The notes under the pieces were generated by a model. The model saw only the letters and a list, made by a program, of their open reading frames with translations. It was not told the DNA's origin and made no database searches. Position numbers and translations under genes: made by a program. A DNA stretch of 64,000 bases from a virus: positions 62,001 through 126,000 of IMG/VR virus record IMGVR_UViG_3300023176_005537; one strand, written 5' to 3'. Shown here piece after piece: positions 2,352 to 61,608 of the stretch (position 1 is its first letter; every line of letters begins with the position of its first letter).

Positions 2352-2358
2352 ATAAATT
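2351..2358 (+). promoter_or_regulatory. Candidate late promoter element TATAAATT
   Basis: TATAAATT differs at one base from the T4 late promoter core TATAAATA, which is recognised by gp55-type sigma. It lies 23 bases before the ATG at 2382, so the sugar island could also be transcribed late. In AT-rich DNA such octamers arise often by chance. Confidence 0.3.
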
Positions 2359-2381
2359 AATATTTCAAATAAGGTTTTAAT

Positions 2382-3662: not shown

Positions 3663-3663
3663 A

Positions 3664-3846: not shown

Positions 3847-3856
3847 AGGTTATTTA

Positions 3857-8198: not shown

Positions 8199-8671
8199 GA
8201 AGATACTTTAGTGAACTGCTTCATAGAGAAATGGGGCAAAATAAAGATATTGTTCTGATCACGGGAGACCTTGGTTATGGATTGTGGGATCGGATCAAGA
8301 TTGATTACGAAGACCGTTTTCATAATGTCGGAGCAGCGGAACAATTTATGATGGGGATGGCTAGTGGAATGGCGATGGAAGGAAAAATTCCAGTTGTTTA
8401 TTCGATTACTCCATTTTTGCTGTATCGGCCATTCGAATTTATACGAAATTATGTAGATCATGAAAAAGTGCCTGTCAAGTTAGTGGGCGGAGGCCGAGGA
8501 AAGGATTATGGATACTTGGGATTTTCTCACTGGGCAGAGGACGATGTGAAAATTATGAAGTGCTTTAAGAATATAGAGACTAACCACCCAAAGAGTGAAA
8601 AAGAATTAGAAGAATCTTTTCGTGATATGCTGTACAACAAAGGCCCCTATTATTTGAACCTTAAAAGATGA
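8195..8671 (+). CDS. Transketolase-like, C-terminal (pyrimidine-binding) subunit
   Basis: 158 residues. It matches the pyrimidine-binding domain of transketolases: IVLITGDLGYG at 19-29, FHNVGAAEQFMMGMASGMAMEG at 42-63, in which Glu49 of AAEQ is the expected activating glutamate, then VPVKLVGGGRGKDYGYLGFSHWAEDDVKIM. The third, C-terminal domain of full transketolases is missing, so the heterodimer with the preceding gene would be a minimal two-domain enzyme. It should move a two-carbon ketol (or related) unit using thiamine diphosphate. Its place next to an RfbH-type dehydrase suggests a keto-sugar acceptor (inference). Confidence 0.87.
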   Translation: MRRYFSELLHREMGQNKDIVLITGDLGYGLWDRIKIDYEDRFHNVGAAEQFMMGMASGMAMEGKIPVVYSITPFLLYRPFEFIRNYVDHEKVPVKLVGGGRGKDYGYLGFSHWAEDDVKIMKCFKNIETNHPKSEKELEESFRDMLYNKGPYYLNLKR

Positions 8672-8684
8672 GTAGGAAAGTAAA

Positions 8685-10878: not shown

Positions 10879-10880
10879 AT

Positions 10881-11831: not shown

Positions 11832-12676
11832 AGCAAGAGAAAAAAATTGCTTGTTTGATCTATTTTTTTGGCAAAAGGTACGAAAGAATAGGAAAATGCG
11901 CTGTTGATAGTTTTAAAAAATATCATCCGGATGTTGATTTGATTCATGTTAACAAAGAAAATGCTGAACAATATCGTTCAACAGAGAAACTTAAATTAGT
12001 TGGCCATGGCATATACAAATATATGCTAGCTGCTGAAATTATGATGAGATTTAAGTATGATAAAATCATCGTCCTAGGTGCAGATACCATAACTTGTTCT
12101 AGATTGACAGAATTTATTGATAACGATGAAGATGATATATTAGCCACGTTGGATTATCCATACAGGCTATATTCTAGACATCGTAATATGTTTTTATCAC
12201 CAGATTCTGAAACACATCTTAATGCAGATGTGGTTTGTTTCAATAATCCTTCTGCTATAGTCGATATTGTTAGAATTGCTAAATCATTCCCAGAGTATGT
12301 GGAGCAGGCTGGGTTGAATTATGTTGTATGGTCTGAAGATTATAACTATTCGTGTTCAATTGTTGATGGCCCATACAAGACTAGCGAGGTTGTATACAAT
12401 GCTCGCGCAAAAGGAAATATCGTAGCCAAGCCGAACACAAAACCTTGGGGAGAGCATACTAATAAATTCTATGTGAAAGATCAAAAGTTGTATACCGGCG
12501 ATAATAAGCAAATTAAAGTTTGGCATTATTGTGATGGCTTGGGAGTTCAAACTGATGCAGTATTTATGGGCACAATGAATCATTATATTAATGATTGGTT
12601 TAATAAAGAGACAAAAGAGTTCTTTGAAGAATGCTGTGATTGTGGAGACTTTTTCAAAAGAGAGTTTGCTTTTTAA
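11825..12676 (+). CDS. Putative GT-A glycosyltransferase
   Basis: 283 residues. The N-terminus IACLIYFFGKRYERIGKCAVDSFKKYHPDVDLIHV resembles GT8-like nucleotide-diphospho-sugar transferases, which start with a strand and a helix containing SF. YDKIIVLGADTI (about residues 76-87) is in the position of the DxD metal site, and LNADVVCFNN is also usual in that fold. A late histidine in KVWHYCDGLG could be the C-terminal metal ligand. The gene sits between the 4,6-dehydratase and a CgeB-like transferase. Family membership is a reading of pattern, so confidence is moderate. Confidence 0.65.
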   Translation: MVKQEKKIACLIYFFGKRYERIGKCAVDSFKKYHPDVDLIHVNKENAEQYRSTEKLKLVGHGIYKYMLAAEIMMRFKYDKIIVLGADTITCSRLTEFIDNDEDDILATLDYPYRLYSRHRNMFLSPDSETHLNADVVCFNNPSAIVDIVRIAKSFPEYVEQAGLNYVVWSEDYNYSCSIVDGPYKTSEVVYNARAKGNIVAKPNTKPWGEHTNKFYVKDQKLYTGDNKQIKVWHYCDGLGVQTDAVFMGTMNHYINDWFNKETKEFFEECCDCGDFFKREFAF

Positions 12677-12679
12677 TAT

Positions 12680-13582
12680 ATGAGAATTTTACTTACAACA
12701 AACAAAACATACAGAGGCTTTTTAGATGGTGGTTATTACCATTTCTTCTCGGCATTAGAGGAGTTAGGGCACGATGTTTATTTTTATGATACGGTCAAAC
12801 CAGATGAAGTAAGTTATTCTAAAGTTATAGAATCCTTTAAGCCAGATGTTATATGGTCTTGTTTGACGGGTGATGCCAACATCGCCCCATATGAACCAAC
12901 AAGAGAGATTAAAAGAGAAACAAAGAGAGGTAGAATCAAGACATTCAATTGGTTTTGCGATGATACTTGGAGATTTGAAACGTTTTCCAAAAAAGTGTGT
13001 AATTTTTTTACTTGCTGCTCCACTCCAGAGCCGCTTTATTTAGAGAAATATAAGCAAATAGGGTATGATAATATACTTTTAGGAAACTGGCATATAAATA
13101 ACAAATACATCAAAAGAGTAGACTTTGAACAGAAAGACATTGACATTTCTTTCATAGGCAATATGACCAAACAAAGAAAGAATTTTTTTGATAATGTTGA
13201 CATCGAGGTTAGCAACTTTTTTGGTTTAACAAACGAGCAACTTTTCAACACACACGGTAGAACAAAGATCGGAATTAATTTAAGCAGGAACGATAATGAT
13301 CCTTTGCGGAAAACGCAAATGAAACAAAGAATATTTGAAATAGCCGCTTCAGGTGGGCTAGTCGTGACTGAATATCATAAAGGAATCGAAGAGTTTTTTA
13401 CAATCGATAAAGAAATCATAACGTTTGAAACAGTCGATGAGTTCAATAAAAAAGTTATTTTTCTGTTAAAAAACCCCAAATTAACAGAAAAGATTGCAAA
13501 TAACGGATACAAAAGATTCTGCAAAGAGCACGAATCTAAAATTAGATTGTCAAAAATCTTAACAAAGATAGTGGAAATATAA
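12680..13582 (+). CDS. CgeB-like glycosyltransferase
   Basis: 300 residues. It has the same layout as the gene at 5964: an N-terminal MRILLTTNKTYRG...YYHFFSALEELGHDVYFYDT, then TFNWFCDDTWRFETFSKKVCNFFTCCSTPE, a central DISFIGNMTKQRKNFFD, and a C-terminal KQRIFEIAASGGLVVTEYHKGIEEFF (about 213-238), which fits the R-x-FE-x-AA-x-G pattern of CgeB/GT4-like enzymes. The stop is immediately followed by the ATG of fcl with no gap. Acceptor and donor unknown. Confidence 0.75.
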   Translation: MRILLTTNKTYRGFLDGGYYHFFSALEELGHDVYFYDTVKPDEVSYSKVIESFKPDVIWSCLTGDANIAPYEPTREIKRETKRGRIKTFNWFCDDTWRFETFSKKVCNFFTCCSTPEPLYLEKYKQIGYDNILLGNWHINNKYIKRVDFEQKDIDISFIGNMTKQRKNFFDNVDIEVSNFFGLTNEQLFNTHGRTKIGINLSRNDNDPLRKTQMKQRIFEIAASGGLVVTEYHKGIEEFFTIDKEIITFETVDEFNKKVIFLLKNPKLTEKIANNGYKRFCKEHESKIRLSKILTKIVEI

Positions 13583-14488
13583 ATGGAAGTATTGGTAACT
13601 GGCGGTTCAGGATTTGTTGGAACCAGATTGCAAAAAAAGCAGAAAAATTGGACATATATTTCTTCTAAAGATTATGATTTGACGGTCAAAGATCATTGCC
13701 GGCAAATGCTTTTAGATATAAAACCTGATGTTGTTCTTCATTTGGCTGGTAAAGTTGGTGGAATAAAAGAAAATAATAAAAAACAAGCAGACTTTTATTA
13801 TACCAACACCATGATTAATACCAATATTTTAGAAGAATCGTATCGTGCAGGGGTGGGAAGGGTTCTGTCTTCTTTAAGCACATGTGCTTTCCCAGATAAG
13901 CTAGACAAATACCCATTTACAGAAGAAGATCTGTTAATAGGACCACCGGCTGTAACAAACTTTTCTTATGGATATGCAAAGAGGAGCTTGTTTGTGCAGT
14001 CATTATCATATTCACGCCAGTATGGTGTAAATTATAATTGTTTTTGCCCCTCAAATCTATATGGGCCTGATGATAATTTTGATTTAGAGAGTGGTCATTT
14101 TGTGCCGAATTTAATTCGAAAAGTTTTTGAATCAGGTATGAAAAAGAATATTGAACTGTGGGGGACCGGTAAGCCTTTGAGGCAACAATTGTATGTTGAC
14201 GATTTGGTTCAGCTTATTCCCGTTTTAATAAAAAAGCACAAAGGGGATTCCCCATTGATAGTGGCTCCTAATGAGAATTATTCGATCAGAGAGTTGGCTA
14301 ATCTTTTAATTGAGCAATTGGATAGAGATTTTAATATTGTGTTTAATAATGAATTGGATGGACAATTCAGAAAAGATGGAGATAACAAGCGTCTTCTAGG
14401 CGTAGTAGGTGATTATAACTTTACCACTTTTAAAGAAGGGGTTATGAAAACATATGAATGGTATGAAAAAAACTATGAAAAACAATAA
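13583..14488 (+). CDS. fcl: GDP-L-fucose synthase
   Basis: 301 residues. The NADP fingerprint [12 protein letters not shown] is at 5-16. [24 protein letters not shown] is distinctive of GDP-fucose synthases. The catalytic residues are present: Ser99/Cys101 in LSTCAFP and Tyr129-x3-Lys133 in [31 protein letters not shown] also matches the family. The enzyme epimerises at C3 and C5 and reduces GDP-4-keto-6-deoxymannose to GDP-L-fucose in the cytoplasm. It precedes gmd, which makes its substrate, and overlaps it by 14 bases. Confidence 0.93.
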
Positions 14489-15458
14489 GACAGCTATTAT
14501 TACTGGCGCGACTGGTCAAGATGGCTCTTATCTTGTAGAGCTTCTTTTAGATAAGGGGTATTTTGTTGTTGGATGTAAGAGAAGAACATCCATTATCTGT
14601 ACAGAAAGATTGGATCACATTTATGATCATCCAAACTTTAAATTAGAATATTTTGATTTAAATGATGTTGGTAACATTTATCGCCTTTTGATGAAATATA
14701 AGCCGGATGAGTTCTATAATTTAGCAGCACAATCTCACGTTCGAGTTTCTTTTGATATTCCAGAACATACAGTCGATGGAGTGGCAATGGGAACTTTGAG
14801 AATTCTAGAGGCGATTAAGAATGTTCTCCCAACGTGCCGTTTCTATCAGGCTAGCTCTTCAGAAATGTTTGGGGACAATCCTGAAAATCCACAAAATGAA
14901 GAGACGGCTTTGATGCCTGCATCACCATATGCCTGTGCAAAGGTGTTTGCTCACAATTTGATTAGAAATTATAGAGAATCATATGGGCTCCATCTCTCTT
15001 CGGGGATTTTATTCAACCATGAATCTCCTAGAAGAGGCGAAACTTTTGTGACAAGAAAGATCACAATGGCAGCAGTAAGGATTAAATTGGGCTTGCAACA
15101 AAAGCTATATCTAGGAAATCTAGACGCAAAAAGAGATTGGGGTTTCGCAGGGGATTACGTTGAAGCAATGTGGATGATGCTACAACAAGAGCAGCCAGAT
15201 GACTATGTTGTTGCAACAGGTGAAACACACACTGTAAGGCAGTTTTTAGACGTTGTTTTTGAATATGCGGGTCTAGACACCAAAAAGTATGTAGAGGTTG
15301 ATGAGCGGCTTTTTAGACCCCACGAAGTGCCTCTGCTTTTGGGCGATGCTACCAAGGCAGAGAAGAAATTAGGATGGAAGCCAAAAGTTAGATTTAATGA
15401 ATTGGCAATTATGATGTATGAAGAAGATCTTAAAAAATTAAAAGGAGAAGTAAAATGA
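14475..15458 (+). CDS. gmd: GDP-mannose 4,6-dehydratase
   Basis: 327 residues from the ATG at 14475; upstream in-frame ATGs at 14454 and 14463 would add up to seven residues but lie deep in fcl. [21 protein letters not shown] is the family's N-terminal signature. [16 protein letters not shown], the catalytic SSSEMFG (about 127-133), Tyr152 and Lys156 in PYACAKV, and [17 protein letters not shown] are also typical. It dehydrates GDP-D-mannose to GDP-4-keto-6-deoxymannose, feeding Fcl. It is the last sugar gene of the island; its stop overlaps the next start (ATGA). Confidence 0.95.
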
Positions 15459-44430: not shown

Positions 44431-45357
44431 ATGGGTTTTATTGACAACAGTGGGGACATTATTTTAGATGCAGTCCTTACAGACCTAGGGAGAGACCTGC
44501 TTTCAAGAGCAGACGGAAGTTATAAGATTACGCATTTTGCTTTGGGCGATGACGAGATTGATTACAGTCTTTATGATGCTACTGCTAGCACTGGAACCGA
44601 GTCTACTTCTTTACGTCAGTTGCCTGTTTTTGAAGCATCTACTGAAAGTTCAATTGGCTTGAAGTACCGTTTGGTTTCAATGACAAACAACAATACTTTG
44701 TTTATGCCGATTGTGAAGCTGAACGAACTTCAAAGAAATACTCAAAAAGCATCTGGTGGGTATTTTGCTGTTTGCGTTGATAAGAATACAGAAGATTTGA
44801 TCTTCACCAACAACACCACTGTTCAGGGTGTTCTGGCCGGTGCAAACCCAACCGAACAAGACACTTTTGTTCTTTTGCATCAAGGTTTAGATACAGACCT
44901 TATCTCACCAAAGCAATCTTTGAGCCCAGAGTTTTTTGAAACTGGCTATGTTGCTGAACTGGACAATCGTTTTGGCTCCGTAGTTTCAGTTGGAACTACC
45001 GCTGTCAATGCTCCTCTGACTTTTATTGACGATGATAATGTTGCATTTTATGATATGTCTTTGGAGTCTGATGGTGGAGAAACAGTTTTCGTTCAGCCAA
45101 TCAGCAACGACACTGATTCGAAATTTATGACAATCTTGGGACCAAGGGGAACTTTCCTGCAATTCAAAATTAAAGCTTCCGAACTTCTCACTACTTCCAC
45201 TACAATCTTTACGGAACTTGGCGGAACAATGAGTTCAACAACTTTTGGAGCATCTGGGACAGACGATCTTTACTTTATTGATGCTATCATTCGAGTTCGA
45301 GCAAAAGTTACAGGATATCAATTGGATATTCCATTAAGATTTATCAAAGAAATTTAA
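44431..45357 (+). CDS. Structural protein with N-terminal LTxxGRxLLS module
   Basis: 308 residues, with TAGGAGAC before the ATG. The N-terminus DNSGDIILDAVLTDLGRDLLSRADGSYKITHFALGDDEIDYSLYD is a module common in phage tail and neck-associated proteins, shared with the gene at 37567. The rest is beta-rich (SVGTTAVNAPLTFIDDDNVAFYDMSLESDGG) and Ser/Thr-rich, ending YQLDIPLRFIKEI. It is probably a virion protein expressed late; the exact position is unknown. Confidence 0.68.
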   Translation: MGFIDNSGDIILDAVLTDLGRDLLSRADGSYKITHFALGDDEIDYSLYDATASTGTESTSLRQLPVFEASTESSIGLKYRLVSMTNNNTLFMPIVKLNELQRNTQKASGGYFAVCVDKNTEDLIFTNNTTVQGVLAGANPTEQDTFVLLHQGLDTDLISPKQSLSPEFFETGYVAELDNRFGSVVSVGTTAVNAPLTFIDDDNVAFYDMSLESDGGETVFVQPISNDTDSKFMTILGPRGTFLQFKIKASELLTTSTTIFTELGGTMSSTTFGASGTDDLYFIDAIIRVRAKVTGYQLDIPLRFIKEI

Positions 45358-45373
45358 TTCAAAGGGATAAAAA

Positions 45374-46504
45374 ATGGCTGGTACGACTAAAAAAATTACC
45401 AAAACTCAACCAATTACAACCAAATTAAGGGAATCTATCCCTATTACCGGTTCAATTGTGTCTGGGACATACGCAGAACCGAACGGTGCAGGAACAACCT
45501 CGAACATTAAAGAGTATACTCACGAGATGTTCCAATCTGTTTACGACTATCCTTATGCTTCCTCCTCGGCAAACCATCTTTTTGATTTGACCGCTGGGTA
45601 TAGTACGAATTCCGACTTGGATGGTGTCACTGGAGAGGTGTCTGGCTCCAAAAAGAACAACATTTACAACGAAATGGCACAAGTTCTTGTTGGTTTTGAC
45701 ATCAACAACAACATTCATCGCTTCGATAAAGATGGAGACCTTACTGGTGGTGCAAAGTTTGATGAAGTAATCACAATCAACGTTGCTCGTCTTTTGGCAA
45801 AAGATGGAATTCAGAAAGGAACGTTTGAGTTGGAGCTTGGCGTTTCTGGATCGGACGCTGGGTATGCTGCTCCGTTTACTCAAAGAATTAAGATTAAAGA
45901 CCTTAATGGGACTTCTTCTTACAAAGTAAACTCCCCCAAGGGAGAGTACGGTATTCTTTACGCAAACAACTCCACAGGTACTCCTTTGGATGGTGTTGGT
46001 ATTGATCCAACAGATAAAACTGCTCCTTGTGGTTTGATTTACTACCAAGCCGGCGTGGCAGTCCTTTCTGCTTCGATGTTTATGCCATCTGCCAATGGTG
46101 GGATTATGAGTGCGTCTACCAACAACTTGCTTTGGCTTTCTTCTTCGTCTAGACAAGAAGATATTCACGAGATTTTGACTTCAGGCTCGATTGAAGAAGT
46201 TGCAACTGGACTTCGCAGAAGAATGTACAATATGACATTCAACAACACTACGAACTTGGTTTCAACAATGTACTTCTGCGATATTGAGCCGGAAGATTTC
46301 AACTTCAGTGCCAACCCGACTTACCTGACGGGAAGCAAGATTAGAGTTAAAGGAAACGACCCACAATCTCCTCCCAAGGCTTATATCACCACTGTTGGCC
46401 TTTACAACGGAGCAGATCAGCTTCTTGCAGTTGCAAAACTTTCCAAACCAATTGAAAATAACCCCGCACAAGCCTTGAAAATCAAAGTGCGCCTTGACTA
46501 CTAA
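45374..46504 (+). CDS. Structural protein, YITxxGLY C-terminal module (paralogue 1)
   Basis: 376 residues, Ser/Thr/Gly-rich and beta-rich. The C-terminal about 80 residues carry FNFSANPTYLTGS, then KAYITTVGLYNGADQLLAVAKLSKPIENNPAQALKIKVRLDY, the same plan as the end of the next gene. This ending recurs in virion proteins of marine T4-like phages. An AAAGGGA ribosome site lies before the start. Role in the tail or fibre network is inferred from module and position. Confidence 0.7.
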   Translation: MAGTTKKITKTQPITTKLRESIPITGSIVSGTYAEPNGAGTTSNIKEYTHEMFQSVYDYPYASSSANHLFDLTAGYSTNSDLDGVTGEVSGSKKNNIYNEMAQVLVGFDINNNIHRFDKDGDLTGGAKFDEVITINVARLLAKDGIQKGTFELELGVSGSDAGYAAPFTQRIKIKDLNGTSSYKVNSPKGEYGILYANNSTGTPLDGVGIDPTDKTAPCGLIYYQAGVAVLSASMFMPSANGGIMSASTNNLLWLSSSSRQEDIHEILTSGSIEEVATGLRRRMYNMTFNNTTNLVSTMYFCDIEPEDFNFSANPTYLTGSKIRVKGNDPQSPPKAYITTVGLYNGADQLLAVAKLSKPIENNPAQALKIKVRLDY

Positions 46505-46523
46505 ATTATTAAGGAGGTAAAAA

Positions 46524-47714
46524 GTGTCTTTGTATAAATTTAACAAGGGCGACACCCTGCTTAATACTTTGGTAGCGAGACCTTCCTATAATTTTTTCAT
46601 TTATCAGAATGATCTCTACCTTAATGAACATGAGCCAATGTCTGGAGCTTACTCGTCTAGCGTTACAAATGTTCCACCGGGCTATGTCAACCTTTATGAA
46701 CTAAACGTCAACCGATCTTCTAGCAATTTAATCTATCCTTTTGTTTATCCTAGGTACGATCAAACATTTGCCTTGTCCAGTTTGCCGACTTCTTCTCAAG
46801 TTCAGCAGATCACAGGTTCTATTTCGGGGTCTTATCCACTTTCTTCGTCGATCAGTTTGTTTTATTTTGCTAGTACTGATGCAACTGTAAAGCACAAGCT
46901 GCTTTCTTTGAAGAATACGATCAATTATTATCGCCCTATGAGCCCACATTTCAACTATTCAGGTCAGATCCCTGCCGGCTCGACCTATAGAACAAGGAAT
47001 TTGGACGAAGAAAACATTAATTTGATCAATATTCCTGCAATTATCACTGGAAATAACATTAAAAAAGGCTCTGTTTCTTTGAAATATTATGTTTCCGGCA
47101 CAATGGTTGCGGAATTGACAGATTACAAGAACGAAAGAGGCGAATTGGTTCAAGTTTCCGGAGCAATTGCAGCAAATGATGGCAAAGTAGCAGGGTTGGT
47201 TCTTTATAATGAAGGATTTATCCTTCTTACGGGGGCTTGGGCTTTGGATACCAGCCACCAAGAAGATTACATTGGCGATGGAAATGACAATCCCAAGTGG
47301 ATTTACTATGGAAGTGCCTTATCAGAGACCTTTACAGGTATCTCAACGCCATCTTCCAGTTATACTTTTGACTTTCAAGCAACAGAAAAGATTCCAAACT
47401 TAACTATGTTAGCTCACGCTAATAGAGGGGAGTTGAATTATTCAAATAATCCAACTTTTATCTCTTCTAGTTCAACGTTGCCGACGATTACAACAGGTTC
47501 TCTTTATTATAAAGAAAACCCAGAAAGAGCAATCAAGAACATTGTGTCTTCTTCTTTCACACAAACCACCGGTTCGTTTGAAAAGATCACTTACATCACC
47601 AAAATTGGTATTTATGATGAATATAAGAACCTGATCGCAGTTGCTAACTTGGCAAACCCTGTTAGAAAAAGAGAAAAAGATTCATTCACATTTAAGTTAA
47701 AAATGGATTTATAA
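46524..47714 (+). CDS. Structural protein, YITxxGLY C-terminal module (paralogue 2)
   Basis: 396 residues from a GTG at 46524, with a strong AAGGAGG. The N-terminus SLYKFNKGDTLLNTLVARPSYNFFIYQNDLYLN differs from its neighbour. The C-terminus (LNYSNNPTFISSSS, then ITYITKIGIYDEYKNLIAVANLANPVRKREKDSFTFKLKMDL) is clearly the same module as in the 45374 gene. It ends the 30-kb virion block; a candidate promoter overlaps its 3' end. Confidence 0.7.
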   Translation: MSLYKFNKGDTLLNTLVARPSYNFFIYQNDLYLNEHEPMSGAYSSSVTNVPPGYVNLYELNVNRSSSNLIYPFVYPRYDQTFALSSLPTSSQVQQITGSISGSYPLSSSISLFYFASTDATVKHKLLSLKNTINYYRPMSPHFNYSGQIPAGSTYRTRNLDEENINLINIPAIITGNNIKKGSVSLKYYVSGTMVAELTDYKNERGELVQVSGAIAANDGKVAGLVLYNEGFILLTGAWALDTSHQEDYIGDGNDNPKWIYYGSALSETFTGISTPSSSYTFDFQATEKIPNLTMLAHANRGELNYSNNPTFISSSSTLPTITTGSLYYKENPERAIKNIVSSSFTQTTGSFEKITYITKIGIYDEYKNLIAVANLANPVRKREKDSFTFKLKMDL

Positions 47715-47743: not shown

Positions 47744-48262
47744 ATGATATTAGGTTTAGATGTTAGCACAAGCATAACTGGAATTTGTGTACTTGACAAA
47801 GAAGAAAATATAGTTTATAATTCTGCTGTGGATACTAGAAAATACAAAAATATGTACGAAAAAGCAGAAAAAGTAAAAGAAAAGCTTAAAGAATTAAAAA
47901 AAGAATATGATATTAATAGCATTTATATTGAAAAGTCTTTGCAATCTTTTAGATCAGGCTTCTCCTCTGCGAAAGTTCTTTCAACATTATCTGCTTTCAA
48001 CGGGATTGTATCTTGGTTCTGTTATGAGATCTATGGAATTTCACCAGAATACATTTCGGCTTCCTCCGCAAGAAAAGATTGCGGTATCAAAGTTCCAAAA
48101 GGCCAAAAGGCAAAGCCCTTTGTTTTAGGAGTTCTGGTGAAAGAAGGTCTAATAAATCCAGAATACACGAAAAAAGGAAATCCAAAACCTATTTATTACG
48201 ATATGTCAGATGCGATTGTCATTGCAAAATCAGGATTTTTAAAAAGGAGAGCAAATAAATGA
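47744..48262 (+). CDS. RuvC-like Holliday junction resolvase
   Basis: 172 residues, with GGAGG before the ATG. The RNase H-fold catalytic acidic residues are visible: Asp6 in LGLDVSTSITG, Glu63 in IYIEKSLQSF, and Asp153/Asp156 in YYDMSDAIVIAKSG. Size and motif order match RuvC-type resolvases (usually 150-180 residues). It should cut branched DNA formed by recombination-dependent replication, the job T4 gives to endonuclease VII. It opens the DNA-metabolism block; the stop overlaps the next start (ATGA). Confidence 0.85.
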   Translation: MILGLDVSTSITGICVLDKEENIVYNSAVDTRKYKNMYEKAEKVKEKLKELKKEYDINSIYIEKSLQSFRSGFSSAKVLSTLSAFNGIVSWFCYEIYGISPEYISASSARKDCGIKVPKGQKAKPFVLGVLVKEGLINPEYTKKGNPKPIYYDMSDAIVIAKSGFLKRRANK

Positions 48263-48699
48263 AAATCACTAAAAAGCTTTTGATGAAGATCATCAAAGAA
48301 GAATTGGTTAGAGAAAGTATGAGCGATTGGCAGGCACACGACCGAAGAGAACGAGGTTTGCCCCCGCTAAAGGCCAATTACGACATTTCCAATAGTATCC
48401 CTCCTGATGGATATGTCCCGCCTCCCGAGCCCAAACTCGAAAACCCCCCTCCCCTTCCACCTGCGACAGAGCAAGATCTGGAAAAAGGAAGAATGGTCAG
48501 TTTTGACGGCCCCTATGAACAACAGATTCATTTCTTGAAAATGCATAATCAATGGTTAAGAAGAGTGTATATGAAGCCTCGCGTAAAGGGCTACGAGAGC
48601 CTAAGCCGGCTTGAGCAACTTAAAGTCCTAGCCAACGGTCCCAATCCCGGTGCGGTCCACGCAGACAAGGGAAGCTTGGAAGACTACCCTCTGGCATAA
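48259..48699 (+). CDS. Hypothetical protein with KIIKEEL N-terminal peptide
   Basis: 146 residues. The first 20 residues (KITKKLLMKIIKEELVRE) are almost the same as the N-termini of the genes at 59344, 60331 and 60814, although the rest is unrelated. After this amphipathic helix come a charged part (DWQAHDRRERGLPP), a proline-rich linker (PPDGYVPPPEPKLENPPPLPP) and a C-terminal helix-loop (QWLRRVYMKPRVKGYESLSRLEQLKVLANG). No enzyme motif. I suggest the N-terminal peptide is a targeting signal, possibly to the prohead. Confidence 0.65.
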   Translation: MKITKKLLMKIIKEELVRESMSDWQAHDRRERGLPPLKANYDISNSIPPDGYVPPPEPKLENPPPLPPATEQDLEKGRMVSFDGPYEQQIHFLKMHNQWLRRVYMKPRVKGYESLSRLEQLKVLANGPNPGAVHADKGSLEDYPLA

Positions 48700-53283: not shown

Positions 53284-53703
53284 ATGATCAAGATTAAGTT
53301 CCTCAAAAAACTCCCCGTTTCAGGAGGCAAATGCCCTCCTGCCACACAAGATCTGAAACTAAACACCAAAAATAGAAACGCTTCAATTAAGGCAGAACAC
53401 ATCCAATACGGCCCTTTAAACCTATCTGACGAGGCTTATTGGGAAAGAGCCGCAGAACATTGGAACACCACTCCTGCCGTGGCTAAAAAGTCCAAATGCG
53501 GCAATTGTGTTGCTTTTGATATTTCACCTAGAATGGATGATTGTATGCCCGGCCCTGTGTCCGATAAGGATGGCCGTTTGGGTTACTGCTGGATGCACCA
53601 CTTCAAATGCCACAGTGCGAGAACATGCTACACATGGGCAGCAGGTGGGCCAATCAAAGAAGACAAAGTTTCCCTTGAATGGCAAGAAAAGGGTGAAAAA
53701 TAA
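53284..53703 (+). CDS. Cysteine-rich conserved phage protein
   Basis: 139 residues. NTKNRNASIKAEHIQYGPLNLSDEAYW is followed by a cysteine cluster: KCGNCVAFDISPRMDDC, then GYCWMHHFKCHSARTCYTWAAGGPI. The motif is very conserved in marine T4-like phages, sometimes named high-potential iron-sulphur-like, but the metal has not been shown as far as I know. Six cysteines and two histidines in 55 residues imply a metal or disulphide-bound domain. The stop overlaps the next start (TAATG). It lies just behind the late promoter candidate and is possibly a virion-associated protein. Confidence 0.75.
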   Translation: MIKIKFLKKLPVSGGKCPPATQDLKLNTKNRNASIKAEHIQYGPLNLSDEAYWERAAEHWNTTPAVAKKSKCGNCVAFDISPRMDDCMPGPVSDKDGRLGYCWMHHFKCHSARTCYTWAAGGPIKEDKVSLEWQEKGEK

Positions 53704-54974
53704 TGCCCTATAAGATCAGGAAAACAAAGTGCAAAAAATCAGATGGTTCTTCCGGAACTCACGTTGTTTATAAAAAAAGCGGTAAGCGTGTCGGATGCAC
53801 AGATGAGCCAGAAGATTACAAAAAAGCTCTTTATGCAGCAGAAGTTAATGAAGTTTTGATCTTGGAAGATACGCTGTATAAAAACGTAGAAGATGACGTG
53901 TTTCTACACTTTACCTTGCGAGATAGAGCTTATAAGATCAGAGAAATGGGAGAATTACTTCGACAGCCCGAAGGTATAGAGAAGTTTGGAACAGATACAA
54001 TTGACGCAGTTTCTTTGATTTGGGGAGATTTTGTCCCCAAAGTGCAGACCAATCACCTAGGCGGCGAAGACATTGTAGCAATCATTTTCAAGACTGATGT
54101 GCCTCCAAAATATGGCTATGTTGAAGAGGTGAAATGGGACGTTGAAAGACTTCCTATTTACGATGTTAGGATTGTGCCTTTCGAAGAAGCAGTTCAAATG
54201 TTGAGAAATGCGCCTGAATATGTCGATGAAATGGATTATGTTCTTTACAAGGAAAATAAACAAATGAATATTGAAGACCTAAGTGCGATCATTCGAGAGG
54301 AAGTTAAGCTTGCACTGGAAGAAGCCAAAAAGAAGAAAAAGAAGAAGAAAAAATCTAAAAAGAAGAAGGGCAAAGACGATCGCTGCACTCGTATTGCAAA
54401 AAGAAAGTATGATGTGTGGCCGTCAGCCTACGCTAGCGGCGCAGTTGTTCAGTGCCGCAGAGGAAAGATTTGGAAAGGTCTAACAGAAGAGAAGGAAATC
54501 ACCCCAGAAGACAAAGAGACAATTTCTGATATTGTAGCCAAATTGAGAGCAGCATCGGAGTCTCACGCTCAAATGGCAAAAGATTTGGAAGATGGTGCAG
54601 CAAAGCTTGAAAAAGGTTCAGAAGCCCATTCTAGCCAAGCAGACAAATTAGAAAAGATGATCCAAGAAAGAAAAAAGAAGAAAAAGAAGTCTAAAAAAAA
54701 AGTAAAAACTGACTTCTCCAAAGAAAAGGACAAAGGCCTTCACGGTTGGTTTGAAAGGCAAGGTGGTAAAGGAAAAAGTAAAGGCTGGGTTGATTGTAAT
54801 ACTTGCCGAACAGACAAGAAAACAGGAAAGAAAACTTGTAAATCTTGTGGTCGTCAAAAAGGCGAGAAAAGAGCAAAATACCCCTCTTGCCGTCCAACCC
54901 CTGCTGCTTGTGGGACTGCTGGCAAAGGAAAGTCTTGGGGTAAAAAGTCTGCTAAAAAAGGAAAAAAGAAATGA
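53703..54974 (+). CDS. Modular lysine-rich protein with small cysteine domains
   Basis: 423 residues in at least four parts. Residues 1-45 are a basic Cys-containing start. Residues 50-187 include VFLHFTLRDRAYKIREMGELLRQ, weakly like an ADP-ribosyl- or phosphotransferase-type HFT start. At 188 a helix NIEDLSAIIREEVKLALEEA resembles the N-terminal peptide of other genes here, followed by a run of lysines. Then come KYDVWPSAYASGAVVQCRRGKIWKG (about 230-256), a helical part, and a C-terminal GLHGWFERQGGKGKSKGWVDCNTCR module with RAKYPSCRPTPAACG. Such C-terminal modules recur in phages and giant viruses without known role. An AAGGAAA at 54249-54255 before the ATG at 54264 may start a shorter product. 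Confidence 0.7.
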   Translation: MPYKIRKTKCKKSDGSSGTHVVYKKSGKRVGCTDEPEDYKKALYAAEVNEVLILEDTLYKNVEDDVFLHFTLRDRAYKIREMGELLRQPEGIEKFGTDTIDAVSLIWGDFVPKVQTNHLGGEDIVAIIFKTDVPPKYGYVEEVKWDVERLPIYDVRIVPFEEAVQMLRNAPEYVDEMDYVLYKENKQMNIEDLSAIIREEVKLALEEAKKKKKKKKKSKKKKGKDDRCTRIAKRKYDVWPSAYASGAVVQCRRGKIWKGLTEEKEITPEDKETISDIVAKLRAASESHAQMAKDLEDGAAKLEKGSEAHSSQADKLEKMIQERKKKKKKSKKKVKTDFSKEKDKGLHGWFERQGGKGKSKGWVDCNTCRTDKKTGKKTCKSCGRQKGEKRAKYPSCRPTPAACGTAGKGKSWGKKSAKKGKKK

Positions 54975-55816
54975 AAATAAAGATTTTGAAAGAGATGAAA
55001 GGGTGCGGTGGTGTTTATGAAAGATGCCCACATTCCGGGTGCTCCCATTGCAGGAGTGAACACGGTCGAGATTTTGATAAGCACGATCACGAAGGTTCAA
55101 TGGCAAGAACCAATCTTTGGAAAACCAAAAAGTATTGTGAAAAGTTATTAGATATGCTTAATGACAAAGATGATCTTCCAGAGTGGGTTGACGCAAAGAT
55201 CACAAAAGCAACAGACTATCTTTCCTCTGTTAAAAGATATATGGCTGGTGAGATTGCCAGAGATCAGGGAATGCTTGAAGAAAGGCTTTCCGAAGGAATG
55301 AAATATCATATGGATAACAATATTACGATTGATAAAAATATTTATCGCATCCACTCTGACAACTTCTTTTCTCTTTTCAAAGAAGCAAGAAATCTTTGGA
55401 AAAGAGGTTTGGTTAATTTAACAGAAGCTGAAAGATATTACATCTCTGAAACTGAAATTGGAGAGTTTGGCATCTTTGAGGGCAAAAGAGTTCCATTGGA
55501 CTTTCCAATGGTTGAGGAGTCTCTTTTGGAAGCAAAGTATAAAGGAAAGGATGTTAAACTTAACAAGCCACAAAGAGGTGGTTCCAAGAAGTTTTATGTT
55601 TACGTTAGAGATCCAAAAACTAAAAACATTCGCAAAGTTTCTTTTGGAGACAAAGGAATGTCTGTAAAGGTGGCAGATCCAGAGAGAAGAAAGTCTTTTG
55701 CAGCACGACATAAATGCAAGGAAAAAAAAGACAAAACAAAAGCAGGATACTGGGCTTGTCGTATTGGGCGCTACCCTCATCTAACTGGTTCAAAGAAAAG
55801 GTTTACTTGGTGGTAA
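54971..55816 (+). CDS. Unknown protein with basic cysteine C-terminal module
   Basis: 281 residues. The N-terminus GCGGVYERCPHSGCSHCRSEHGRDFDKHDHEGSM is Cys/His-rich, which suggests zinc binding. The middle is helical (YCEKLLDMLNDKDDLPEWVDAKITKATDYLSSVKRYM). The C-terminal about 90 residues (KPQRGGSKKFYVYVRDPKTKNIRKVSFGDKGMSVKV, then SFAARHKCKEKKDKTKAGYWACRIGRYPHLTG) form a basic two-cysteine module seen in other marine phage proteins. The start overlaps the preceding stop. Function unknown; DNA or capsid association is plausible from charge. Confidence 0.68.
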   Translation: MKIKILKEMKGCGGVYERCPHSGCSHCRSEHGRDFDKHDHEGSMARTNLWKTKKYCEKLLDMLNDKDDLPEWVDAKITKATDYLSSVKRYMAGEIARDQGMLEERLSEGMKYHMDNNITIDKNIYRIHSDNFFSLFKEARNLWKRGLVNLTEAERYYISETEIGEFGIFEGKRVPLDFPMVEESLLEAKYKGKDVKLNKPQRGGSKKFYVYVRDPKTKNIRKVSFGDKGMSVKVADPERRKSFAARHKCKEKKDKTKAGYWACRIGRYPHLTGSKKRFTWW

Positions 55817-55817
55817 T

Positions 55818-56096
55818 ATGGAATTTCCTTTCAAAGAAAAGAAGTTAGAAAACAATATCGTGATCAGAGAGTTCAAAGAAAATGTTGATTCCGAAGAGCT
55901 TATCTGGCATAGAGATAGAGAAAACAGAGAAGTTACAATCTTGCAATCTTCTGGATGGCAACTTCAAATGGACAATGAAATTCCAAAAACCCTTGAAGAG
56001 GGAAAAACTTATTATATTCCTGCTTTTGTTTACCACAGAGTGATCAAAGGCAGCGGCAATCTTATTGTTAAAATAAAAAAGGAAGAGATTAAATGA
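55818..56096 (+). CDS. Cupin-like small protein
   Basis: 92 residues. ELIWHRDRENREVTILQSSGWQLQMDNE followed by LEEGKTYYIPAFVYHRVIKGSGNLIVKIKK (about 28-90) fits a single small beta-barrel of cupin type: WHxD supplies His/Asp metal-ligand-like residues and YHRV a later His, with the Pro-x-x-x-x-H spacing of cupins. Similar proteins occur in marine T4-like phages. No substrate can be named. The stop overlaps the next start (ATGA at 56093). Confidence 0.72.
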   Translation: MEFPFKEKKLENNIVIREFKENVDSEELIWHRDRENREVTILQSSGWQLQMDNEIPKTLEEGKTYYIPAFVYHRVIKGSGNLIVKIKKEEIK

Positions 56097-57910
56097 AGAT
56101 GAAATTAATCATGGAAAGTTTTCGAAAAACAATGAAAGAATTCAAAGAGAGAGAAGGCAAAACAATGTCTTATGATTCTTCTTTGGGTGGCTTTGTTGTT
56201 TCAAAAGAAGACTTGTCAAAAATCAACCAAGCAATCGAAAAGATCTACAAAGCATTTGAAGAAAGAACCGGAGGAACTGCTGAAAATATCCCTAGGATTG
56301 AAGCAGAAGATCTAGAGCCTGTTGCGGGAGCTTTGAACGAATCGGCGGAACAAGGTGGGGAGCCCACCGAAGAGGAAAAGGATTATATTGCTCTACGACA
56401 TTTTGGATACGATTCATGGAACGAATTGCCCGAAGAAGACAAAGATCTTGTGATGAGAAGGTTGGAGCTTTTCACTTCGGGCGGCGAAATGAAGCAAACC
56501 ATTGGAGCCGTTAGTGGCTTGAAAAAAGGTCTGGGACGTATGAGCCCAGAGGACTTTGAAAAAGGGGGATACGTCCTTCCCGTTTCCGCAGAAGTTCTGG
56601 AAGATTTTCAGGCTATGGTCAATGAATTGAAAGAAGGTGGTGAAGTCGATAGCCTTTTTGAAAAAGCTAGGGACTGGTATCATAAAATTAGAGATCTCCT
56701 CGATGAAGAAACTGGAAATGATCAAGACGCTACTTTGCTAGGTCTTCTTATTGCAACGTACAGCCCCAGAGCAAAGTTTGCTCTGAACTTGGCTGAAGCT
56801 GCTTTTATGTTCAAAGCAGTTGAAATGGATGCAAAGGACAACAAAGAGCTTTTGAGAGAATATATTAATATCTTTCCCGGTGGTAAAAAGAAAAAGCAGG
56901 GAGAATTTCGAGGGTTTACAAAGGCGCACAAAGTTCCAAACTTCACCCTGAACCTGATCGCCCCAGATTTGTCTGGTGGGCGAGATAAAGAAGGGAAAAT
57001 TAGCTATGATGAGCTTTATATGTGGAACTCCACAATTGACACTTGGATGATTGACGCTTTTTATCCAAATGTCAGAGGTGTTACAACGGCAAAAGAATGG
57101 GAAAAGATCAAAGGCAAGATGATGGGTAACGTTGTTACTTATCGGTATATGGCAGGGTTGGTCGCACAGGAAGCGAAAAAACTAGGCCTCTTACCTCATG
57201 AGCTTCAAGCTATTGTGTGGGTTGCTTCTCAAATCAGAAAGACTGGAGAGAAAGGTCTTGGTGTCACTACTGAGTTTGCAATCAATCAAATTAAACAATC
57301 CATTGTCAACCTAGAAAAGATTAAAGAACAATTCAACGAAGAGGAAAGGATTAATAAGAAGTTGGTCGGACCATACCTTAAAGAGTTGGATATGGACAAA
57401 GAATATACAGAACAGTTTGGAGATCAAAGCTGGCTTAAAGTTATTTTGGATAAGATTGAAACAGATGGTTTTGATGAGGCTGCTGATTATATCTTAGGAA
57501 TTAAAAAAGGAGACAAAACGGTTGTTCCCGGTGTGCGCTCTATCACAGCCTCTGGTAAGAAAGGGAAAGAACCAGATCGCTTTAATCCTGTTCGCCCAGA
57601 GTTTAAACCAAAGAAAGAGAAGAAAGAAAAGGAAGAAAAGAAGAAGAAGCCAAAGGACACAAGATATCAAGACGCAGAAAAATATGGAGAACTTAAAACA
57701 TTTTATGTTATGAATGAAGTCATTCAGATGCGAACCGGAAAGTTCAATAACCTTCACGACTCAATTCTTTTGTATTTGAGTGATGATTTCTCTAAAGAAA
57801 AGGCTGTTGATTATATTCTAGGCAGGTTCGACTCCGAAGCAAAAGCCTCCAAAGATTATTTCATCAAAGAAAGCAAAAGAAGATTTGTTGTAAGGATTTT
57901 GAAATCATGA
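56093..57910 (+). CDS. Large unknown protein with helical HhH-like phage domain
   Basis: 605 residues. The first 15 residues (MKMKLIMESFRKTMKEF) form a short amphipathic start different from the KIIKEEL type. The core at about 205-410 contains LLGLLIATYSPRAKFALNLAEAAFMF, TKAHKVPNFTLNLIAP, YMWNSTIDTWMIDAFYPN and LGLLPHELQAIVWVASQIR. Order and spacing recall a mycobacteriophage family of unknown function that looks like a helix-hairpin-helix enzyme fold (TIDTW in place of the aspartate motif). A lysine-rich linker at about 503-525 leads to a C-terminal helical part. Function unknown. Confidence 0.62.
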   Translation: MKMKLIMESFRKTMKEFKEREGKTMSYDSSLGGFVVSKEDLSKINQAIEKIYKAFEERTGGTAENIPRIEAEDLEPVAGALNESAEQGGEPTEEEKDYIALRHFGYDSWNELPEEDKDLVMRRLELFTSGGEMKQTIGAVSGLKKGLGRMSPEDFEKGGYVLPVSAEVLEDFQAMVNELKEGGEVDSLFEKARDWYHKIRDLLDEETGNDQDATLLGLLIATYSPRAKFALNLAEAAFMFKAVEMDAKDNKELLREYINIFPGGKKKKQGEFRGFTKAHKVPNFTLNLIAPDLSGGRDKEGKISYDELYMWNSTIDTWMIDAFYPNVRGVTTAKEWEKIKGKMMGNVVTYRYMAGLVAQEAKKLGLLPHELQAIVWVASQIRKTGEKGLGVTTEFAINQIKQSIVNLEKIKEQFNEEERINKKLVGPYLKELDMDKEYTEQFGDQSWLKVILDKIETDGFDEAADYILGIKKGDKTVVPGVRSITASGKKGKEPDRFNPVRPEFKPKKEKKEKEEKKKKPKDTRYQDAEKYGELKTFYVMNEVIQMRTGKFNNLHDSILLYLSDDFSKEKAVDYILGRFDSEAKASKDYFIKESKRRFVVRILKS

Positions 57911-58944: not shown

Positions 58945-59354
58945 GTGAGATTTGGGCAGAGGTTAAAAGAAAGTGGACAGAGTCCAAATATTTTATAGCA
59001 GTTGTTTTTGTTTTCTTGACAGTTGCTATTTTTCTTTTGACGACCAGCGATGGTCAAAAAAGATTGAGACAAATCATAAGGTCTTTGCAAAAAAGAAGAG
59101 AAGATGAATTGTACGAAATCCAAGAAAAACAAAATCAAAAAGAAAAAGAAAAGAAAGATTTAAAAAAGAAACATGAGAAGATTTTGGAAGAGATTGGAAA
59201 AGAATACAAGATTGGAAAAGAAAACGCCAAGAAAGAATACGACAAGAAGGTTAAAAAGATCTTGAAACAAACAAAGAAAGATCCTTCTCAGTTGTCCAAA
59301 AGATTGGCAGATGAATTTGGTCTTGACTACAAGGAAGATAATAATGAAAATTAA
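58941..59354 (+). CDS. Inner-membrane spanin-like protein
   Basis: 137 residues. A short cytoplasmic start (SEIWAEVKRKWTESK) leads to a single membrane helix at about 17-35 (YFIAVVFVFLTVAIFLLTT), then a long, strongly charged coiled coil (LYEIQEKQNQKEKEKKDLKKKHEKILEEIGKEY) reaching the end. This is the i-spanin (Rz) plan. An overlapping or nested outer-membrane lipoprotein is not visible; the signal-peptide protein at 59894 may be its partner. The last 11 bases overlap the next start. Confidence 0.6.
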   Translation: MSEIWAEVKRKWTESKYFIAVVFVFLTVAIFLLTTSDGQKRLRQIIRSLQKRREDELYEIQEKQNQKEKEKKDLKKKHEKILEEIGKEYKIGKENAKKEYDKKVKKILKQTKKDPSQLSKRLADEFGLDYKEDNNEN

Positions 59355-59880
59355 AAAAAAACAACTCTTAAAAATCATCAAAGAAGAGCTTTTAAAAGAA
59401 AACATACAAGAACTTTTTGCAACAATAAGACAGCTTATCAATGCCGGCCAATATGACAGGGCATATGCTCAAATCATGGTGCAAATTGATGAAGACGATC
59501 CAAAGCACAAAATGGCAATTGATTATCTTGTTAGGCACAGTGGAGATGATTCGTATGAAGATAAGCTAAATAGTTGGCCTGATAGCGATTTTAGAAAATT
59601 AATTGCATATGGCTTTCTGCAATACGATCATGATTTTGATGACTTTCTGTCGAACTATGTCCAAGGTATCTTCGAAAGTCCCGAAGATTATCTTAAATAT
59701 AGGTGGGAAGAGTACACTTGGGACATGATTGAGGAGCTTCCACTTCCCTCCGACATAGAACGTTATATCGATATCGAAATCAATTGGGCTATGTGGGCAA
59801 GAGACAGTGAGCTTAATGGCGAGTTTGCATCTTGGGAGCTTGATGGCGTTCCCGGAGTTTTGATTATATCCCCAGCATAA
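59344..59880 (+). CDS. ArdA-like protein with KIIKEEL N-terminal peptide
   Basis: 178 residues from the ATG at 59344; an in-frame upstream ATG at 59311 adds 11 residues but lies inside the preceding gene. Residues 1-18 (KIKKKQLLKIIKEELLKE) are the shared peptide. The C-terminal part reads RYIDIEINWAMWARDSELNG (about 140-159) after FESPEDYLKYRWEEYTWDMIEELP, which resembles the YIDYExxARDLELNG ending of ArdA DNA-mimic antirestriction proteins. The whole is strongly acidic (many Asp/Glu), as ArdA is. ArdA blocks type I restriction. If the assignment is right, the N-terminal peptide could load it into capsids for delivery. Confidence 0.5.
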   Translation: MKIKKKQLLKIIKEELLKENIQELFATIRQLINAGQYDRAYAQIMVQIDEDDPKHKMAIDYLVRHSGDDSYEDKLNSWPDSDFRKLIAYGFLQYDHDFDDFLSNYVQGIFESPEDYLKYRWEEYTWDMIEELPLPSDIERYIDIEINWAMWARDSELNGEFASWELDGVPGVLIISPA

Positions 59881-59893
59881 GACAGGAGTAGAA

Positions 59894-60334
59894 ATGATTA
59901 CCTTTAAACGCGTTTTAAGCACCATTCTAGCCACTTTCATCACAATTTCGCCCTGCTATGCCAATAAGTCCACAAGGCTTCAAAAAGGGGCAAAAGCGCC
60001 CTTTTCTGGAACGCTCTTGGATGATGAAGCGGTAGCAAAGATTTTGGCAAAACAAGATTACTTGAAAAAAAGCTTGAAGTTGGATTGTTCTTACCAAAGA
60101 CAAAAAGAAAAAGCAAAGCTTCAATTGAAGATTGATCAATGCAAAGTAGATTTCAAAATTGAGAAAGAATTGAGAAAAAACTTAAGAAAGATTGATCAAG
60201 AAGAGATTACAAGATTAAGAAAGATTGCAAAGCCGCAAAACAATTGGACACCTCTTTGGATCACAATTGGCTTTGTTGCAGGAGCAGGAACAACAATTTT
60301 AATTCTTTATGGAATACAAGGAATTCAAAAGTGA
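59894..60334 (+). CDS. Exported protein with C-terminal membrane helix, lysis-associated
   Basis: 146 residues, with GACAGGAG before the start. Residues 1-23 are a signal peptide (MITFKRVLSTILATFITISPCYA). Then comes KGAKAPFSGTLLDDEAVAKILA, a motif I know from short phage proteins near lysis genes, then a charged helix with two cysteines (LDCSYQRQKEKAKLQLKIDQCKVDF), and a C-terminal membrane helix at about 121-140 (WITIGFVAGAGTTILILYG). It should sit in the envelope with its helix in the periplasm, and may take part in spanin-like outer-layer disruption. No lipobox. Its stop overlaps the next start (GTGA). Confidence 0.6.
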   Translation: MITFKRVLSTILATFITISPCYANKSTRLQKGAKAPFSGTLLDDEAVAKILAKQDYLKKSLKLDCSYQRQKEKAKLQLKIDQCKVDFKIEKELRKNLRKIDQEEITRLRKIAKPQNNWTPLWITIGFVAGAGTTILILYGIQGIQK

Positions 60335-60786
60335 AGATCAAAAAAGAAACCATTTTCAAGATCATCAAAGAAGAGATTGAAAGAGAACTTTCAAAAGAAG
60401 AAAAGCACAAGATTGTTTCTTTTGATTTTGATGATACCTTGACCTTTGCTCCTTTTGATCCGGAAGAAGAACATTCTGTTTACAAAGGGCCTCATGAGGA
60501 AATGATGAAAAAGATTAGAGGCTATATCGAAGATCCAGAAGTTACCGTTTATATTGTAACAAGCAGAAAGCAGGGCGGCATGGGACAAGTTAAAGGTTTT
60601 GTCGAAAAATATAAATTAAAAGTTGACGGCATTTATTGCACAGACGGAGATTGGAAAGCCCCCACTTTGAAAGAATTGGGTGTAACTTTGCATCATGACG
60701 ATGACAGTCAAGAAAATGAAAGAGCAGAAGCAGTAGGAATCCAGACAGTTCCAAGTGATCCATATGGCGATTACGGCACATTTTAA
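60331..60786 (+). CDS. HAD-like phosphatase with KIIKEEI N-terminal peptide
   Basis: 151 residues from a GTG at 60331, which overlaps the previous stop; a further upstream in-frame ATG at 60244 lies inside the previous gene. Residues 2-19 (KIKKETIFKIIKEEIERE) are the shared peptide. After it VSFDFDDTLTF has Asp32 and Asp34 of HAD motif I, YIVTSRK is the motif II Thr/Ser, and LHHDDDSQENE is the acidic motif IV. Small HAD phosphatases act on nucleotides or polynucleotide 3' ends (compare T4 PseT). The combination with the N-terminal peptide is unusual. Confidence 0.75.
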   Translation: MKIKKETIFKIIKEEIERELSKEEKHKIVSFDFDDTLTFAPFDPEEEHSVYKGPHEEMMKKIRGYIEDPEVTVYIVTSRKQGGMGQVKGFVEKYKLKVDGIYCTDGDWKAPTLKELGVTLHHDDDSQENERAEAVGIQTVPSDPYGDYGTF

Positions 60787-60813
60787 AGCAACAGGCCAAT
60801 GGAGAAGTTATAG

Positions 60814-61608
60814 ATGAAAAGTCATAATAGCAATATAAAAATTAAAAAGAATCTTCTCTTCAAAATTCTGAAAGAAGAGATCAAAAAAGAATTTTTGAAA
60901 GAAGGTATTTTAAGGATTCAAGATTATATTTCAAATGAAAATTTGAAATTGATTGAAGATACGTTTCGCAACCTTTTAAATACATATTTAACTTCCGATA
61001 GAGAAGAAAGCCTTTATTGGAATGTTGAGAAATTTGAATTTATAAATGTTGCCGGAGAGGAGGAGGTTGTTGACTTGATGCTTTCCGTTGGTCGGCCACC
61101 AAGAGGAATGGAAGGGGCTGTTGCATATCTAGATGCTAGGCCCAGTATTGGCTATTACCACTTAGCAATGTGTGTGTTAAACAAGGAAGATTATGATATA
61201 GAGGACGGTATTGATACCATGATTAATCATGAATTAATTCACTTGATAGATTCAAAATATTTTAAACGAAAAGACAGGAAAAAAGCTTACTTAGCTAGGC
61301 GAGAAGAAATTTTAGCTTTTTCTAGTCAGATATATAAACAGGTTGTTGACTTTTTAAATTCGGAAGATGAGCAGGACAAAGATTATTTGAATATTTTGCT
61401 TAATCTTTATAAAGATGGTGCGATAAAACAATTACAATTATTTAAAGCTATATTAAAGACTAGTCAACAGCTTGGAGCGATAGGCAAAGATCCCAGATTT
61501 ATAAAATCTATAATGCATCAGCACACAATGAAAGATAAGCAACCTTATTTAAAACATCTTTACAAAAAATTGTGGCCATTGATTCAAAAGAAACTTCAGG
61601 AGGTTTAA
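60814..61608 (+). CDS. Putative zincin metalloprotease with KILKEEI N-terminal peptide
   Basis: 264 residues, with GGAGAAG at 60801-60807. Residues 8-26 (IKIKKNLLFKILKEEIKKE) repeat the shared N-terminal peptide after a seven-residue extension. The motif NHELIHLIDSKYF has His139-Glu140-x2-His143 and Asp146, the HExxH(x2)D form of several zinc peptidases. The rest is helical (RREEILAFSSQIYKQVVDFL). It is probably an intracellular or packaged peptidase. The TAATG overlap couples it to the next gene. Confidence 0.65.
   Translation: MKSHNSNIKIKKNLLFKILKEEIKKEFLKEGILRIQDYISNENLKLIEDTFRNLLNTYLTSDREESLYWNVEKFEFINVAGEEEVVDLMLSVGRPPRGMEGAVAYLDARPSIGYYHLAMCVLNKEDYDIEDGIDTMINHELIHLIDSKYFKRKDRKKAYLARREEILAFSSQIYKQVVDFLNSEDEQDKDYLNILLNLYKDGAIKQLQLFKAILKTSQQLGAIGKDPRFIKSIMHQHTMKDKQPYLKHLYKKLWPLIQKKLQEV

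Follow-up and report, generated by a model that had tools for sequence, protein, structure and literature searches.

What could lead four otherwise unrelated proteins of one phage to begin with nearly the same amphipathic helix? This question is raised by a 64,000-nucleotide stretch (hereafter the window) of the IMG/VR virus record IMGVR_UViG_3300023176_005537, comprising bases 62001-126000 of a 156,945-bp contig that we designate G000. A preliminary description of the window reported the shared N-termini (hereafter leaders) and likened them to the capsid-targeting sequence (CTS) of the internal proteins (IPs) of phage T4. All four leaders are confirmed, each in its place and frame, and the analogy has gained strength: a modular leader with a gp21-like site at its end, a co-occurring S77 protease with matching sites in the major capsid proteins (MCPs), a similar helix on a protein of the head gene cluster, and the exchange of leaders on one protein family can all be read from the sequence. 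We consider it likely, by analogy with T4, that the helix is a prohead-core targeting propeptide functionally equivalent to the T4 CTS, and that the proteins bearing it would be cut, packaged, and ejected. The four proteins make up only a small fraction of a system that is considerably more extensive.

All four genes lie on the forward strand. They encode a proline-rich protein of 146 aa (48259..48699; leader KITKKLLMKIIKEELVRE), a protein of 178 aa (59344..59880; KIKKKQLLKIIKEELLKE), a putative HAD-like phosphatase of 151 aa with a GTG start (60331..60786; KIKKETIFKIIKEEIERE), and a metalloprotease-like protein of 264 aa with the motif HELIH (60814..61608), in which the leader KIKKNLLFKILKEEIKKE follows 8 further residues. 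Leader residues 1-19 of the first three occupy 48259-48315, 59344-59400, and 60331-60387, with candidate cleavage sites at IKE-14 and VRE-19, at IKE-14 and LKE-19, and at IKE-14, respectively; residues 1-30 of the fourth (60814-60903) hold LKE-21 and LKE-30, the latter before Gly. A profile of leader residues 2-16 was trained on one protein per sequence cluster (242 rows), and gives these leaders 36.7, 36.4, 25.2, and 21.3 bits; seven G000 proteins, of which the window contributes two, are among the training rows, and with all seven removed the scores are 35.1, 35.4, 25.0, and 20.3 bits. A weaker relative reported inside the product of the gene at 53703 was not accepted as a member, its best score being 2.2 bits, 188 residues into the protein, where 67 of 420,277 internal open reading frame (ORF) positions reach 2 bits. 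Extending the motif search beyond the window, a check proposed in the preliminary description, yielded relatives in other records as well as seven further N-terminal leaders in G000 (contig coordinates 45294, 47290, 48087, 48761, 49275, 49592, and 50839), so that G000 encodes 11 clear tagged proteins.

The leader is concentrated at gene starts. In the nine contigs covered by the ORF profile scan, out of 24 large records that carry the leader (tagged records), 103 of 1963 ORFs score at least 10 bits somewhere in their first 30 positions, vs. 3.6 expected from internal positions; both values are unchanged when G000 is removed from training. Only 37 of the 420,277 internal positions reach 6 bits. 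ORFs were called longest-first on pieces no longer than 20 kb, or 64 kb in the case of the window, so that some of the assigned starts are incorrect and ORFs that cross piece ends were possibly lost. The 60331 protein itself scored as an internal match. The expectation of 3.6 is perhaps too high, because in 12 of the 22 internal matches of at least 15 bits a Met comes immediately before the match, so that these may be genuine starts. In G000, two of the 103 hits are unclear leaders, one at 8463 and the other on a head-cluster protein (contig 130435-130830).

The bodies behind the leader are unrelated in sequence, which is the arrangement of a T4-type CTS. Beyond residue 25, 312 unique tagged proteins from 205 loci (with initial Met and stop codon, at least 40 aa; nine G000 proteins included, 60331 and 60814 left out) fall into 245 clusters, 213 of them singletons (BLAST E 1e-3). 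Pfam, PADLOC, and PHROG scans of the 73 longest cluster representatives (75 less two from the window) identified 22 Pfam families, each in a single member, and the known domains among the putative cargo are of different folds (pentapeptide, LRR, GNAT, and EF-hand). Tagged genes may stand consecutively, as at 47.6-57.0 kb in record G012 and 6.4-12.2 kb in G011, where gp21 is far away (at 171.6 and 90.8 kb, respectively).

For the end of the leader, 242 of the 245 representatives (at least 60 aa) were analyzed. Because residues 1-15 were selected on, their conservation is no evidence, and only residues 16 onward count; a hydrophobic-x-Glu with Glu at position 14, present in 242/242, was part of the selection. 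At the unselected positions 17-26, a hydrophobic-x-Glu is found in 189/242 representatives, vs. 218/1174 in five control windows, and when these residues are shuffled the count averages 104 and never exceeds 121. A hydrophobic-x-Glu with Glu at position 21 or 22 is seen in 138 representatives, vs. an average of 21.6 and at most 35 after shuffling. The residue that follows a site at 22 is Ala, Gly, or Ser in 41/94 cases vs. a background of 22%, and such sites also have hydrophobic residues at -3 (71%) and -6 (67%). Past residue 22-23, conservation falls near background. As in the T4 CTS, the leader thus appears to end in a gp21-type site, (L/I)-x-E. G000 leaders end in ILRE, LLKE, LVRE, or FLKE, and the site in the G000 MCP reads LLKE before Ala; all 20 MCPs, from 18 records, have [LV]L[KR]E ahead of the mature start, the position of which is predicted from likeness to T4.

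According to Pfam, the G000 contig encodes a portal (PF07230), an S77 prohead protease (PF03420), and a Gp23 capsid protein (PF07068), by which we infer that G000 is a T4-like phage. A presumed scaffold gene (contig 133984-135033) is named from its position, and a Pfam scan of it was empty. The S77 gp21-type protease was found in 20/24 large tagged records and Gp23 in 18/24, and the pairing of S77 gp21 with a Gp23-type MCP that has a matching propeptide site, as in the T4 CTS system, includes G000. Among 50 control records, chosen by a tRNA pattern (50 of 120 stretches: 22 long ones listed plus 28 taken in order), S77 was found in nine, and among controls of at least 95 kb in 8/19 (p = 0.009). 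In passing, the G003 and G012 contigs (loci L151, L165, L153, and L166) each have two adjoining Gp23-type capsid genes, both of which encode this type of propeptide site.

A leader-like start (e.g., MNKSQLKKLIKPVVKECIQEVLIEE) is also present on a protein of the head cluster downstream of gp21 in 19/20 loci, as judged by eye after filtering by score or a loose pattern; in G008 no such start was seen. The gene is the next after gp21 or within a few genes of it, and the product has 129-153 aa where complete, with no match in a PHROG scan. Nine of the 20 starts score 9.6-24.9 bits, the best being that of G016 (MAKITKRMLKGIVKECLVEILSE, 24.9 bits). In G003, G012, G013, and G016, four of the largest genomes, a second small head-cluster protein reads K[IL]TPxxL[KR][KR][ILM]Vx[EQ]E.

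The KITK leader (MKITKxxLxxIIKEE in its strict form) is not the only one. A second, W-type leader reads MK[KL]L[LM]xxW[RK]x[FY]hxE (h, hydrophobic); its core W..[FY]h.E stands at the N-terminus of 24 ORFs vs. 1.5 expected, and a longer W-pattern gives 39 matches (summed) in 10/34 records, all 10 of them among the 24 tagged records, with no match in 10 GenBank records and none in G000. Behind the W core are a SAM-lyase-family protein in G011 (PF23780, 34.9 bits, cut-off 28) and a Nudix protein in G000. One homologous family (GPLLYDVAIEWAT..) bears three leaders: W-type in G001, LRxYIR-type in several G010 paralogues, and KITK in G010_133826, with the alignment picking up again after the leader Glu. 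For G010_133826, the likeness further downstream is supported by BLAST (E down to 5.7e-20), and the junction rests on the alignment. The G010 contig at 253-262 kb (L414, L415) holds a paralogue array, several members of which have the third leader, MKxLRQYIRKILLTE, followed by AMKT. Leaders are also kept inside longer proteins: G002_1723 holds ENKTKITKTQLQQIIKEEMEAELSEDKYATEDDR, and the counterpart of its domain in G001 is a separate tagged gene. This 395-aa protein (G002 contig from 1723 onward; L373) has its internal leaders at domain joints.

As a DNA pattern, the strict KITK leader occurs in at least 118 stretches of IMG/VR, and 173 leader copies were read in the IMG/VR loci listed. Among GTDB genomes (one per species, 84,980 species) it occurs in just nine stretches on six contigs, all from metagenome-assembled genomes (MAGs). 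One of these contigs, of 305,838 bp, also carries an S77 protease and is therefore most likely phage; S77 was not found on the other five tagged contigs, and it is present in 2/6 tagged MAGs, the second of which has it on a contig that differs in length from the tagged one. A relaxed 44-base pattern gives 194 matches (summed) across 24/24 large tagged records, at 2 to 20 per record, vs. none for the reversed pattern in the same records. Of the 50 control records, one matches, and this record has S77. A random 15-mer control comprised 15 records only, the longest of 42 kb. Against named phages, tblastn of a leader peptide gave no match (the query was perhaps filtered), and blastn of window positions 1-8000 gave nothing usable. 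A string search of papers for the leader gave unrelated matches only, and among the papers searched, mostly from outside the subscription literature, no title or abstract opening describes such a leader, or sets of leaders, for T4-like phages that are uncultured.

These features would fit the following sequence of events. The amphipathic face of the leader would dock the protein into the scaffolding core during head assembly, the partner possibly being gp22, or else the protein of the head cluster that lies near gp21 and starts with a similar helix. A gp21-type protease would then cut at hydrophobic-x-Glu, at residue 14 and/or 18-22, and free the mature protein within the head, from which it may leave together with the DNA and act as an early effector. 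On balance, and with less assurance than for the targeting role of the helix, we favor the view that a large uncultured T4-like lineage uses interchangeable leaders (KITK-, W-, and LRxYIR-type) as a cargo-loading code, by which up to about 20 or more mostly unknown proteins per head would be delivered with the DNA, some of them synthesized as fused polypeptides in which leaders sit at the joints.

Several observations weigh against this interpretation. The size-matched association with the protease is modest (p = 0.009), and 7/8 large S77-positive controls are without the leader, which for that reason is lineage-specific. Four of the 24 tagged records have no S77 match; in G018 and G020 the gap would be explained by a portal at or near the contig end, but this does not hold for G017 and G023, both of which also carry the W-type leader. 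In two tagged records no head gene at all was found. Of the head-cluster proteins, 11/20 score below 9.6 bits, most of these carrying a short insertion, and among the nine above that score the G011 match is in a shifted register. Fifty-three of 242 representatives, and likewise the 60331 leader, are without a hydrophobic-x-Glu at 17-26, and residue 15, after Glu-14, is Glu in 219/242, where T4 has Ala. Among 10 phage records from GenBank, including two from uncultured phages, just one matches the relaxed pattern, with a single weak match. Most of the putative cargo, as judged from the 73 longest representatives, is without known function or domain, and the literature gave no virion proteomics or cleavage data for any tagged phage.

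Of the alternatives, the one that survives best accepts docking into the prohead core, but takes most tagged proteins for core or structural components that are degraded or retained rather than delivered as effectors. The helix near gp21 and the shortage of known effector domains would both suit it, and gp22, gp67, and gp68 of the T4 core are described as degraded by gp21 (PMC9958956). We nevertheless regard it as unlikely: the tagged proteins are highly variable, with 213/245 clusters singletons, unlike core parts; many tagged arrays are distant from gp21, as in G012 and G011; and some tagged proteins have enzyme or repeat domains. A second alternative places the helix outside head assembly, as a tag that brings proteins to machinery in the cytosol, for instance the host RNA polymerase or a replication complex. 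Short N-terminal recruitment helices do occur in biology, and docking of the leader to the core is itself a predicted step; against such a role, the leader ends in what appears to be a gp21-type site, a similar helix opens a head-cluster protein, and within one homologous family the KITK leader takes turns with a leader that resembles the T4 CTS, so that we give this explanation little credence. It is scarcely credible that the common N-terminus arose without selection, as a by-product of recombination or of a shared translation start region, for although tandem arrays of tagged genes make recombination at gene starts plausible and there is some codon bias within the leader, its residues stay constant while codons vary, and leaders also occur inside longer proteins without a preceding Met and at one C-terminus, where a start-region role is inapplicable.

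The labels that the preliminary description gave to the bodies of the four window proteins fare unevenly. The proline-rich character of the 48259 protein and the HELIH of the 60814 protein are visible in the sequence, although Pfam and PHROG scans gave no family for either. The 60331 protein has a visible FDFDDT, matches PF06189 below the cut-off (E 0.00076, 18.8 bits, cut-off 28.2), and matches phrog_1238 at 2.3e-7, which together lend weak support to its naming as a HAD phosphatase. An apparent exchange of leaders between HAD proteins, 60331 and G019_2373, was rejected (BLAST E 0.065). For the 59344 protein, the ArdA label was rejected as unsupported: no family was found in Pfam and PHROG scans. 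The ArdA model PF07275 had no match in G000, nor in 14 controls, so this does not demonstrate absence. Structure models of the 59344 and 60814 proteins (mean pLDDT 38.7 and 42.4) were too poor to use, and a homologue search for three window proteins gave only copies of 99-100% identity and no diverse ones.

Other proteins of G000 are related to the tagged set. Two of the seven additional tagged proteins are pentapeptide-repeat proteins (Pfam). The first of the seven, a pentapeptide-repeat protein of 632 aa (contig 45249-47147, L005; 617 aa from the leader Met), begins with a KITK leader and carries a leader-like peptide again at its extreme C-terminal end (47079). Within the window, all on the forward strand, the product of 54971..55816 is a homologue of a family that bears a KITK-type leader in other phages (E 2.5e-14 to an L072 protein and 3.4e-13 to G015_80271); its start reads only MKIKILKE and scores -22.8 bits, hence it is untagged by the profile test, and it is possible cargo. 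The product of 53284..53703 is likewise possible cargo, being homologous, at 70% over 122 aa, to a protein of G015 that bears a W-type leader (MKLLFESWRKFIIE); no recognizable leader is present here. A 605-aa protein (56093..57910) starts with MKMKLIMESFRKTMKE, which by eye is W-type-like but has no W, and which scores -39.7 bits with the KITK profile; it is a weak candidate for a leader-bearing protein. Elsewhere in the window, a long run of genes at 2382-15458 resembles sugar or glycan synthesis, with glycosyltransferases, transketolase halves, NAD epimerases, and a DegT-like aminotransferase named from the sequence by eye, and a protein at 1035-1829 that bears GGSSGSPIL is, also by eye only, trypsin-type serine protease-like.

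Proteins that a phage injects can take effect as soon as infection begins, and if the cargo-loading interpretation is true, whole repertoires of injected effectors would be readable from sequence. A leader readable in DNA would single out, in uncultured phages, hundreds of unknown proteins as candidate effectors; a SAM-lyase-family match and a Nudix enzyme are already seen behind the second leader. Like the T4 CTS, leader peptides of this type might also serve to bring foreign proteins into phage heads.

The closest known counterpart is T4. Its IPs are reported to have only the N-terminal leader in common, with each of the three blocking a different restriction enzyme (PMC12373910), and they are treated as the paradigm for leader-bearing proteins that block restriction enzymes (PMC3012670, PMC9958956). 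In the T4 CTS, residues 4 and 7 are described as targeting and residues 8 and 10 as important for processing, with propeptides given as 10-19 residues long (PMC9026906), vs. 65 residues for the gp23 propeptide (PMC9958956). The system described here is like that of T4 in having a short, propeptide-like N-terminal leader on otherwise non-homologous proteins, and an S77 gp21 protease in most tagged records. In the T4 genome (NC_000866), IPII and IPIII read MKTYQEFIAE-A, gp24 reads MAKINELLRE before Ser, and gp23 reads FLTE before Ala. When Y4..F7 I8.E10 of IPII and IPIII is aligned with L8..I11 I12.E14 of the new leader, only the hydrophobic register matches, the residues themselves being different (MKITKxxLxxIIKEE vs. 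MKTYQEFIAE); the W-type leader (W..F-h-x-E) is closer to the T4 CTS than the KITK leader is. The new leader also differs in that it often has a second site at 18-22, and in that large tagged records have 2 to 20 pattern matches rather than three IPs. The gp24 and gp23 sites, which we take to be exactly where these proteins are cut, resemble the ends of G000 leaders (ILRE, LLKE) and the MCP site (LLKE), although gp24 and gp23 are shell proteins and not cargo. In the phiKZ-like giant phage SPN3US, the paralogues gp53 and gp54 are reported to have the same 15 N-terminal residues, with protease motifs among them, and multiple sites are reported for several propeptides (PMC5694885). The shared N-terminus and the multi-site propeptides are points of likeness; SPN3US differs in its protease family (S80), in its AxE/SxE motif, and in having the leader on paralogues rather than on unrelated proteins. 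Thus, IP leaders were known from T4 and multi-site propeptides were also known, whereas the scale of the system, the two-site form of the leader, and the exchange of leaders are new here.

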